20,376 bases of DNA from a virus, in IMG/VR virus record IMGVR_UViG_3300038701_000505, positions 1 to 20,376 of that record, one strand, 5' to 3'. A program made the position numbers and the translations under genes. The notes below the pieces were generated by a model. That model did no database searches, was not told the origin of the DNA, and was given only the letters and a program-made list of their open reading frames with translations. This document shows, piece after piece, positions 4,566 to 16,067 of the stretch (the first letter of the stretch is position 1; each line of letters opens with the position of its first letter).

Positions 4566-4596
4566 TGCCCTCGGGTTGGTAGGTCTCCCGGGGGCA
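4566..4596 (+). terminator. Intrinsic-type hairpin after the capsid gene
   Basis: TGCCCTCGGG (4566-4575) pairs with CCCGGGGGCA (4587-4596) over 10 bp with one G-U pair and an 11-nt loop. It begins 17 bases after the capsid stop. The following bases TTCGCTTT are only moderately T-rich, so it may attenuate rather than fully stop transcription. Confidence 0.65.
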
Positions 4597-4604
4597 TTCG
4601 CTTT

Positions 4605-4683
4605 GGGCGCGGAAGGTTTCGATTGACGCGAAGACCGCAAGCGGAGCGCGTTAAGACCTCGGTTCGACTCCGAGCGTGTCCAC
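4605..4683 (+). ncRNA. tmRNA-like tRNA domain without a usual mRNA domain
   Basis: The bases fold into a compact tRNA-like shape. GGGCGCG (4605-4611) pairs with CGTGTCC (4675-4681) as a 7-bp acceptor stem. The D-side loop contains GGTTTCGATT (4615-4624), the signature of the tmRNA 5' end. GACGCG (4625-4630) pairs with CGCGTT (4647-4652) like tmRNA helix 2 and is capped by CCG-CAAG-CGG. The T arm is CTCGG-TTCGACT-CCGAG (4658-4674). The third acceptor pair is G-U (4607 with 4679) and the discriminator base is A4682, the identity elements for alanyl-tRNA synthetase. CCA is not encoded (ACTTA follows). There is no ordinary D stem or anticodon loop, so it is not a normal tRNA. Expression and function are unknown. 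Confidence 0.5.
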
Positions 4684-4897
4684 TTAATTAGGCTGTATAT
4701 GATCGCTAGAACATAACCTGTCCTGCGCGAACGAGCAGATTCCCGGAACAACTGACACTTACGCTTCGGCTAAGTGACGGTTATTGTGCGAGCGCGCATA
4801 ATTGCTGTTAAGTCAAAAACATAACGCGGTGTAATGGTTTCGACAGGAACTAAGACAGGTGTGGCACAACTGTACCGAATTCGGTATTGTTTTGACT
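4684..4897 (+). other. Non-coding stretch with tmRNA-like fragments and hairpins
   Basis: No convincing gene lies here. Visible items are: (a) CACTTA (4756-4761) paired with TAAGTG (4771-4776) and closed by GC-TTCG-GC with one bulged C; (b) a tag-like frame at 4729-4779 starting A-N-E-Q and ending Y-A-S-A-K-stop; (c) TGTAATGGTTTCGAC at 4830-4844, which looks like a second tmRNA 5' end; (d) a GACAGG direct repeat at 4842-4847 and 4854-4859; (e) the palindrome TACCGAATTCGGTA (4873-4886) followed by TTGTTTT, a possible weak terminator. I found no partner strand for (c). TATTGT at 4885-4890 could be a -10 for a leaderless glycosyltransferase mRNA starting at 4898. Confidence 0.4.
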
Positions 4898-6094
4898 ATG
4901 GCCTACGAAAGAATTAAGGGAGCGATTGCTCTCGCAAGTAACAGCCCGGGAGCACCTACCGGATACGGAGTTCAAGCGGAGTATCTAGTAGAGCGGTTCG
5001 TGCGTCACGGCATTAAGACTGCTGTCCTATCGAACTACGGTCTCGAAGCTCAACGCTCAAAGATCACTACGCCATACGGCAAGGCAGAGCACTTCCCCAA
5101 AGGGCTCACGCCATACAGCGATGATGTGATTCCCCTCTGGTATGAAGCGTTCATGGCGGATAATCTCGGGACACCCGGAGCGGTCATGACGCTGTTCGAT
5201 GTTTGGGTTTACAACAACCTCAAGTTTGACGGCGACATCTTGTCTTGGGTTCCGATAGATCACGTCACCTTGCCTCCCGGAGTGCGGCACTTCTTGGCAC
5301 GCGACAACGTAACGCCTATCGCCATGAGCCCTCACGGTAAACGCCTACTCGACAAAGAGTTCAAAATAGACTCGGCTTATATTCCTCACGCTGTCGATAC
5401 CAGCATCTTCAAGCCGACTAAGACTATGCGCGGTGTTGCTACGCGGAAACTTATGGGAGTCCCGGAAGACGCGTTTTTAGTTTCAATGGTGGCTGCTAAC
5501 AAATCGAATGGGATGATCCATCGCAAAGCGTTCGCAGAGCAACTGATCGCGTTCTCTCATCTACGACAAGCGCACCCTGACGCTTACCTGTATTTGCACA
5601 CGACACCTCACAAGACGTACAACGGCTTCAACTTGAATGCCCTACTGCCCGCGGTGGGGCTGGATAGGGAACGAGTAATTATTGCCGACGAGGATCAGTT
5701 GCGTATTGGATACCCGCAGAAGGAGCTGGCTGCCCTATACACGGCTTCCGACGTGCTTCTCGCCGCTTCTTACGGTGAAGGGTTCGGAGTGCCTCTGATC
5801 GAAGCACAGGCCTGCGGAACTAAGGTTATTACCGGCAACTGGACTTCCATGCCGGACTTGGTCTCCGAGAGCTCTTACTTAGTCCAAGGGCAACCGTTCT
5901 GGGACGAACCACAAATGTCGTTCTTCCAGGTTCCGCTGATCCAATCTGTTTACAACGCGCTCGAGCAAGCGTATGCAGATGAACGCGGTTCGGATCAGGT
6001 GAGTATCGACTTCGCTCAGCAGTTCGGGCTGGAGAAAGTCTGGGCTGATTATTGGATGCCGTTCCTCCGGGATTTTTTTGAGCGGCGGAAATAA
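4898..6094 (+). CDS. GT-B (family 4 type) glycosyltransferase
   Basis: This 398-aa enzyme is predicted to transfer a sugar from a nucleotide-sugar donor. The N-terminal half has the acceptor-side GYGVQAEYLVERF motif. The C-terminal half has the donor-binding block TASDVLLAASYGEGFGVPLIEAQ with the EX7E pair Glu294 and Glu302, then ACGTKVITGNWTSMPDLV. No signal peptide or membrane segment is seen, so it is probably cytoplasmic. The ATG at 4898 is chosen because the conserved N-terminus begins right after it, although it lacks a Shine-Dalgarno site and may be leaderless; a GTG at 4859 would add 13 residues. It overlaps the methyltransferase by one base (TAATG). The acceptor is unknown; position next to the capsid gene suggests a virion protein. 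Confidence 0.88.
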   Translation: MAYERIKGAIALASNSPGAPTGYGVQAEYLVERFVRHGIKTAVLSNYGLEAQRSKITTPYGKAEHFPKGLTPYSDDVIPLWYEAFMADNLGTPGAVMTLFDVWVYNNLKFDGDILSWVPIDHVTLPPGVRHFLARDNVTPIAMSPHGKRLLDKEFKIDSAYIPHAVDTSIFKPTKTMRGVATRKLMGVPEDAFLVSMVAANKSNGMIHRKAFAEQLIAFSHLRQAHPDAYLYLHTTPHKTYNGFNLNALLPAVGLDRERVIIADEDQLRIGYPQKELAALYTASDVLLAASYGEGFGVPLIEAQACGTKVITGNWTSMPDLVSESSYLVQGQPFWDEPQMSFFQVPLIQSVYNALEQAYADERGSDQVSIDFAQQFGLEKVWADYWMPFLRDFFERRK

Positions 6095-15751: not shown

Positions 15752-15828
15752 TGGATTTTGAAAGTTTCGACGGCATCCAGGTGCCGATTGATCCTATGGA
15801 GTTGCTTAACTGCGATTCTTGCCAGTAA
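15751..15828 (+). CDS. 25-aa ORF with a C-terminal CxxC
   Basis: An ATG overlapping the previous stop (TAATG) opens a 25-codon frame, MDFESFDGIQVPIDPMELLN then CDSCQ, ending 6 bases before the terminator. The overlap and proper placement as last gene of the operon support translation; the CxxC pair could bind metal or be redox-active. No family is recognised. Confidence 0.4.
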   Translation: MDFESFDGIQVPIDPMELLNCDSCQ

Positions 15829-15834
15829 AGACTA

Positions 15835-15874
15835 AACCCCGGCCAGGCTTCCCTCCTTTCTCCTGACCGGGGTT
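15835..15874. terminator. Strong bidirectional terminator
   Basis: AACCCCGGCCAGG (15835-15847) pairs with CCTGACCGGGGTT (15862-15874) over 13 bp with one C-A mismatch and a 14-nt loop. It is flanked by AAGACTAAA on one side and CTTTG on the other. It sits where the rightward late operon and the leftward operon 15888-16993 converge, so it can end both. Confidence 0.8.
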
Positions 15875-15887
15875 CTTTGCTGTCTGG

Positions 15888-16067
15888 TTATTTTGTCCAG
15901 AGGTAGACGGTGCGTTTCGCTACGCCGAGGAGCTTGGCAATAGTCGGAGCGTGATACCCATGCTCCATAGCTCGGTGCGATACGTAGCGCATTTGACGGC
16001 TGTTCTGTGCCAGGTCTTTCAAGATGGCCTTCCGGTCAGCGCCCAAGCGTTCTAGTACTTCTTTCAT
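15888..16067 (-). CDS. Small helix-turn-helix protein
   Basis: This 59-aa protein ends HAPTIAKLLGVAKRTVYLWTK, a helix-turn-helix in which KLLGVAKRTVYLW looks like the turn and recognition helix (similar to IAKLLGVS.RTV.RW). I chose ATG 16067 because GGGGAGGTG lies 3 bases upstream; a GTG at 16091, which overlaps the upstream stop, would add 8 residues. It is the last gene of the leftward operon. Such small HTH proteins often control early phage promoters, and the repeated palindromes at 3245 and 17018 are possible targets, but that link is inferred only. Confidence 0.72.
   Translation of the reverse strand: MKEVLERLGADRKAILKDLAQNSRQMRYVSHRAMEHGYHAPTIAKLLGVAKRTVYLWTK

Follow-up and report, generated by a model that had tools for sequence, protein, structure and literature searches.

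A CDS-less tmRNA gene reduced to the tRNA-like domain in a tailed phage, and its widespread relatives in viral sequences

Trans-translation is essential in many bacteria and is a target of antibiotics. In tmRNA, helix 2 runs on into the mRNA-like domain. Among phages, mycobacteriophage DS6A is listed by Hudson et al. 2014 as 'TLD only', that is, with the tRNA-like domain (TLD) only (PMC4131195), and no other phage case is named in the tmRNA papers of 2014 and 2025 (PMC4131195, PMC11915505). According to the passages of these two papers that cite Mao et al. 2009, a molecule like that of DS6A strongly inhibits tmRNA whether or not it can be charged with alanine, perhaps by titrating SmpB (PMC4131195), and the form found in DS6A is inhibitory to E. 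coli tmRNA (PMC11915505). CDS-less tmRNAs also persist in mitochondria and plastids, the mitochondrial ones together with SmpB, and the 2025 tmRNA database contains nine unique sequences classed as 'standard, no CDS' among 97,179 (PMC11915505). In the openly licensed papers, we found no report of TLD-only RNA as a widespread phage gene family.

The locus described here lies in a virus record of 20,376 bases, analyzed at its full length (hereafter, the window). It belongs to a tailed phage, whose identified proteins are a protease, an HK97-type major capsid protein, a head-tail adaptor, a tape measure protein, an endolysin, and RecE-like and RusA-like proteins. Among named phages, Pontimonas phage phiPsal1 has the most similar capsid (53% identity), which suggests an actinobacterium as the probable host. 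In the interval from the end of the HK97-type major capsid gene (4548) to the ATG of a glycosyltransferase gene (4898), we observed that positions 4605-4683 of the plus strand read as a complete tRNA-like domain of tmRNA from which the mRNA-like domain is absent. This putative TLD-only RNA gene is a single contiguous piece of 78-79 nt with the following features.

4605..4683, + strand: TLD-only RNA, from G1 to C74 (direct reading; held-out family covariance model R2, 80.8 bits, E 5.4e-17)
4605..4611, + strand: 5' strand of the acceptor stem, GGGCGCG, with G3 at 4607 (7/7 pairs with 4675-4681)
4615..4622, + strand: GGTTTCGA, D-loop segment of the actinobacterial tmRNA type; D stem absent (direct reading)
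4623..4630, + strand: 5' strand of helix 2, TTGACGCG (8/8 pairs with 4647-4654)
4635..4644, + strand: small hairpin CCG-CAAG-CGG that caps helix 2 and replaces the mRNA-like domain and pseudoknots (direct reading)
4647..4654, + strand: 3' strand of helix 2, CGCGTTAA (direct reading; family covariation)
4658..4674, + strand: perfect T arm, CTCGG-TTCGACT-CCGAG (direct reading; 4/5 pairs covary)
4675..4681, + strand: 3' strand of the acceptor stem, CGTGTCC, with U70 at 4679 (direct reading)
4682..4683, + strand: discriminator A73 (4682) and encoded C74 (4683); C75 and A76 not encoded (direct reading)

In order, the element reads GGGCGCG-GAA-GGTTTCGA-TTGACGCG-AAGACCGCAAGCGGAG-CGCGTTAA-GAC-CTCGG-TTCGACT-CCGAG-CGTGTCC-A-C, and its G3-U70 pair is formed by G4607 and U4679. 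The D loop is of the tmRNA type (GGUUUCGA) without a D stem, and the 16 nt between the two strands of helix 2 leave no space for a resume codon, a tag or pseudoknots. The initial annotation had described a stand-alone TLD of tmRNA type, in which helix 2 closes on itself within 79 nt. Direct reading confirmed its coordinates and parts; the stand-alone reading and the self-closing helix, with its own small hairpin, were also borne out by a large covarying family.

Compared with canonical tmRNA (RF00023), the window element shares the acceptor with G3-U70, GGTTTCGA, helix 2, the T arm and A73, and relatives of it score above the RF00023 cut-off even though their matches leave out most of the model; in contrast with canonical tmRNA, it has no resume codon, tag frame or pseudoknots, and helix 2 is closed within 79 nt. 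With tRNA-Ala it has in common G3-U70, A73, the acceptor and the T arm, but not a D stem or an anticodon loop, and its helix 2 is variable in sequence. The possibility that the element is a tRNA was rejected, given that it has neither a D stem nor an anticodon arm and that ARAGORN reported 0 genes in the window, neither tRNA nor tmRNA. The CDS-less tmRNAs of mitochondria and plastids (Jacob et al. 2004; Hafez et al. 2013; PMC11915505) have likewise kept the TLD and lost the tag, although they are organellar and the mitochondrial ones are mostly permuted genes. As far as its available description goes, the TLD-only tmRNA of DS6A (tmRNA Website id 11587; Mao et al. 2009, RNA Biol 6:355) resembles the window element in having little beyond the TLD; the window phage is a different virus with a phiPsal1-like capsid. 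By its features, the window element belongs to an already known kind of RNA, the CDS-less (TLD-only) tmRNA. What is new is that TLD-only RNA constitutes a widespread phage gene family, with a strict alanine identity, and that one phage pairs a TLD with a full tmRNA.

When folded as a single sequence, the window element was not better than its shuffles (z -1.4), and therefore the case for it rests on its relatives. The initial annotation had proposed a comparison with related phages, and in L005, one of 80 contigs with related capsids, the element is present at the equivalent site after the capsid gene, with an acceptor, helix 2 and T stem that are altered yet still paired. Covariation was evaluated in the 33 distinct sequences with a 3-nt linker, which were chosen by their acceptor and T stem and not by helix 2. 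In this set, 96.5% of cells pair, compared with 66.9% in shuffled sequences and at most 51% when the partner was slid. Two-sided changes were present in 16 of the 20 pairs, the four that never vary being G1-C72, G3-U70, G7-C66 and G53-C61. The compensatory changes that had been suggested as a check on the acceptor and helix 2 were found in both: all eight pair positions of helix 2 and four of the seven acceptor pairs showed two-sided changes, the remaining three acceptor pairs being invariant. The same picture was obtained with 62 representatives under 90% similarity and, family-wide, each varying pair has a compensatory change. These comparisons indicate that the window element is more than a product of chance.

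The family covariance model R2 was trained on 31 sequences, leaving out the window and L005, and was used to search 481 kb. It recovered the window element with the score given above, as well as eight other TLD-only copies, of which seven are from capsid relatives, phiPsal1 among them, and the eighth is from Streptomyces phage CeilingFan, whose full tmRNA scored only 28 bits. A scan with the Rfam tmRNA models, also proposed in the initial annotation, had a divided outcome. In the window, no match reached the cut-off, which is 47 bits for RF00023 and for tmRNA_permuted: the only candidate was tmRNA_permuted (RF04321) with 20.6 bits, RF00023 did not match the window's copy, and RF02544 gave no match in the window at E values up to 10. 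However, seven of ten relatives tested reached 54.6-61.4 bits with RF00023. In 60 family loci, ARAGORN called no element correctly. TLD-only RNA genes are missed by ARAGORN, and some of them by the Rfam cut-off.

IMG/VR was searched with a pattern consisting of GGTTTCGA, a gap of 26-54 and GACNNNNGTTCGANTC, which left the acceptor, the outer T stem, helix 2, U70 and A73 free. At least 120 stretches matched, and in at least 117 of them both the acceptor and the T stem are complete and G3-U70 and A73 are present; two of the matches (L096 and L183) did not have the full structure, and a third (L106) is a broken copy. A version of the pattern with GGATTCGA matched 36 contigs, 34 of them with the structure, and a version with GGTTTCGAT matched 13 further contigs. 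Altogether, the family has 124 distinct sequences, and at least 160 viral contigs carry it. G3-U70 is present in 123 of the 124 (the exception is the broken copy in L106), A73 in all of them, and an inner hairpin stem of at least three pairs in 121, according to a permissive test; the conservation of GGTTTCGA is partly imposed, since it served as the search word. C74 is encoded in 113 of the 124 distinct sequences, and C75 and A76 mostly are not, perhaps in relation to 3' processing.

The named carriers are LuckySocke, GiJojo, pSt2308, BRock and phiPsal1, along with CeilingFan, in which the D loop has drifted. A BLAST search with the window region matched Streptomyces phages LuckySocke and GiJojo, the match being inside a tRNA array, and about 35 further Streptomyces phages matched the CeilingFan TLD by BLAST, at a site that is nearly always unannotated. 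In Streptomyces phage Alone3 (L299, 787-863), a partly broken TLD, with a changed D loop and mismatches in helix 2 and the T stem, occupies the site where its relative LuckySocke has an intact copy. No SmpB gene was found in the ten carrier records searched, from which it follows that the RNA of this family must rely on the SmpB of the host.

A stricter pattern applied to 257 Gb of bacterial and archaeal genomes gave 17 matches, 12 of which were rejected because the structure was absent; the five structured matches (L221, L222, L227, L228 and L230) came mostly from metagenome bins. In a scan of 396 Actinomycetota genomes with strict filters, the sole match was the one already known, and the other 395 genomes did not contain the element. 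This near-absence from cellular genomes indicates that the TLD-only element belongs to viruses and is a virus gene. At the level of sequence, the anatomy of the RNA, the selection acting on every stem, the conserved alanine identity and the phage specificity are established here.

Within the capsid group, the element immediately follows the capsid gene in the window, L005 and L006 and immediately precedes it in L016, L021, L030, L032 and phiPsal1, so its position moves; the location behind the capsid gene, given in the initial annotation, is accurate for the window and two relatives but not for the other five. In other carriers (L086, L108, L122, L130, L140, L101 and L123), the element is inside or beside tRNA arrays and on the same strand; in L122 it precedes a tRNA-Trp by 2 nt, and in L140 it is flanked by tRNA-His and tRNA-Arg. 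This gene-like placement was also observed in Streptomyces phages LuckySocke, GiJojo, pSt2308 and BRock. Both flanking reading frames are on the strand of the element in 47 of the 78 cases with two flanks. A promoter and terminator scan around the window element revealed nothing convincing for the element itself.

Two other structures were noticed in the window. The loop of a hairpin located after the capsid gene (4566-4596) is complementary to the first codons of the glycosyltransferase gene (4898-4907), TTGTAGGTT with AACCTACAA, and the TLD gene sits between the two sides of this complement. A complement between the capsid hairpin loop and the next gene is also present in L001, L007, L038, L041, L050, L062 and others, and the loop and the start codons co-vary (AGACTAGGTT with AACCTAGTCT in L038, L041 and L050; TTTGGTTGAT with ATCAACCAAA in L062). 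The longest complement had a mean of 8.0, compared with 6.9 for swapped partners (maximum 7.3, 200 swaps). The capsid hairpin and the glycosyltransferase start could possibly form a long-range RNA switch acting on translation. In addition, the region 15788-15889, which contains a strong hairpin (CCCCGG...CCGGGGT), gave a weak match to the Rfam ErsA RNA (25.5 bits, cut-off 50, E 0.27) that is probably due to chance.

Since inhibition by TLD-only molecules is reported in the tmRNA papers cited above, the simplest account is that the window RNA is such an inhibitor, and we consider it fairly probable that it is a CDS-less tmRNA with which the phage inhibits host trans-translation. The RNA would be transcribed together with neighboring genes or tRNAs, trimmed by the host enzymes that process tRNAs and, by virtue of G3-U70 and A73, charged with alanine, and it would bind SmpB and EF-Tu-GTP via the GGUUUCGA loop, helix 2 and the T arm, in the same fashion as tmRNA. 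Without a tag reading frame, a TLD-only RNA could not complete trans-translation, and for this reason SmpB (and stalled ribosomes) would be taken from the host tmRNA, with the consequence that tagging and rescue would be blocked during infection. The expression, charging and SmpB binding of the TLD-only RNA, as well as its benefit to the phage, are what we infer. In favor of an inhibitor, the initial pattern left the stems, U70 and A73 free, yet at least 117 of the 120 matches have both G3-U70 and A73. These identity elements hardly vary, even though inhibition is reported for an uncharged TLD as well, which suggests that the natural TLD-only RNAs act after charging, probably on the ribosome; if titration needs no charging, this near-invariance suggests more than passive binding of SmpB. 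A more specific proposal, which we advance only tentatively, is that this large, virus-specific family of RNAs of ~75-85 nt plays an active part in ribosome rescue: charged with alanine and bound to SmpB, the RNA would move into stalled ribosomes and accept the nascent chain but add no tag to it. If this were true, viruses would possess an RNA that either counters trans-translation or rescues ribosomes without a tag, and some phages would run such an RNA next to their own full tmRNA.

The latter situation is illustrated by Streptomyces phage CeilingFan, which carries a TLD-only RNA (85816-85893) and a complete tmRNA (98419-98699) with the tag ANSNVASAYALAA (L213 4001-4078, L281). Its TLD retains all stems, with a D loop that has drifted to GGTGTGA (GGUGUGA). 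The presence of both RNAs implies that the small one is not a mere remnant of a phage tmRNA. This pairing is odd for a simple inhibitor, and it raises the possibility that inhibition is selective or timed.

The co-existence with a full tmRNA in CeilingFan, together with the strictly conserved alanine identity and the persistence of CDS-less tmRNAs in mitochondria (with SmpB) and plastids (PMC11915505), would also agree with tagless rescue, in which the alanine-charged TLD and SmpB enter the stalled ribosome and take the nascent chain while another factor recycles the ribosome. As proposed for the tagless mitochondrial tmRNAs, ribosomes would be freed to the benefit of the phage, and phage proteins would be neither tagged nor degraded. 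We find this rather doubtful, considering that the TLD-only molecule, as presented in PMC4131195, inhibits E. coli tmRNA whether charged or not, and that no release factor or rescue gene was recognized in the window. We know of no release mechanism for such a tagless rescue. The conserved acceptor and T arm, and the frequent location among phage tRNA genes, would suit a decoy for another tRNA-binding factor, such as AlaRS, EF-Tu, RNase R or a host anti-phage nuclease that attacks tmRNA or tRNA; but AlaRS or EF-Tu alone would not need helix 2 and a tmRNA-type D loop, and no anti-phage nuclease defense system was identified, which makes a decoy unlikely.

It is quite improbable that the element is a processing signal, whose tRNA-like fold would let RNase P and RNase Z cut the transcript of the structural genes near the capsid gene. 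The element adjoins this gene in the window and in several relatives, but other copies are remote from capsid genes, within tRNA arrays, and neither G3-U70 nor GGTTTCGA nor a covarying helix 2 would be required for such cleavage. The initial annotation had also considered that the element could be a relic or mark an attachment site. It is common for prophages and islands to exploit ssrA or tRNA genes, the 3' half being part of the common core (PMC10865867), and the copy in phage Alone3 is partly broken; nevertheless, the stems are maintained with compensatory changes across the 124 distinct sequences (L106 being broken), and the family includes large phages that carry the element in tRNA arrays. 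Moreover, a comparison with 396 Actinomycetota genomes, a set that may lack the host of this phage, whose contig is partial, revealed no identity of 30-45 bp; the best DNA match was 31 bp at 87%. These data disfavor both a relic of a tmRNA gene and an attachment site copied from the host ssrA, and we judge them very improbable. As to a permuted two-piece tmRNA with GGTTTCGACAGG (4835-4846) as its 5' piece, the Rfam model tmRNA_permuted joins both pieces, but at 20.6 bits, below the cut-off of 47, and the family model gives 4826-4891 just 8.2 bits (E 2.8). Of the 7-nt stretches before 4835 tried by eye, none pairs with CGTGTCC, whereas 4605-4611 pairs perfectly. Because the acceptor match is missing and the 5' strand is contiguous, a permuted tmRNA that uses the downstream GGTTTCGAC was rejected, and we assign it almost no chance of being correct. 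GGTTTCGACAGG itself, a second tmRNA-like word ~150 nt downstream that has no partner structure, may be a relic or a chance occurrence.

Four phage matches were not accepted as TLD-only elements. The match in Tunturiibacter phage Tunturi_4 reads as a permuted tmRNA, with its 5' piece GGGGACGACATGGCTTCGACGGGG ~160 nt downstream, and was not counted. In this phage (L301, 418-1180), the apparent permuted tmRNA adjoins the gene of a 115-aa protein with an RF-1 domain (PF00472, E 6e-11) and an ArfB-like size, which places two ribosome-rescue parts next to each other in one phage. Synechococcus phage S-CRM01 and the crAss-like phage cr130_1 match mainly in the T arm and were not counted either. The annotated tmRNA of cr130_1 (L302, 742-1132) does not look whole: only the T arm and a helix 2-like part score, and the annotated tmRNA contains a tRNA-like sequence. 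The match in Vibrio phage 1.081.O looks like a degenerate tRNA-Ala.

The TLD-only tmRNA of phages, with DS6A as its one example, has hitherto passed for an isolated curiosity. The 124 distinct sequences, the spread over at least 160 contigs of viruses and the near-absence from bacterial genomes point to frequent selection on phages to interfere with trans-translation or to replace it. Why phages touch ribosome rescue, and whether the RNA needs alanine to do so, can now be tested in laboratory hosts.
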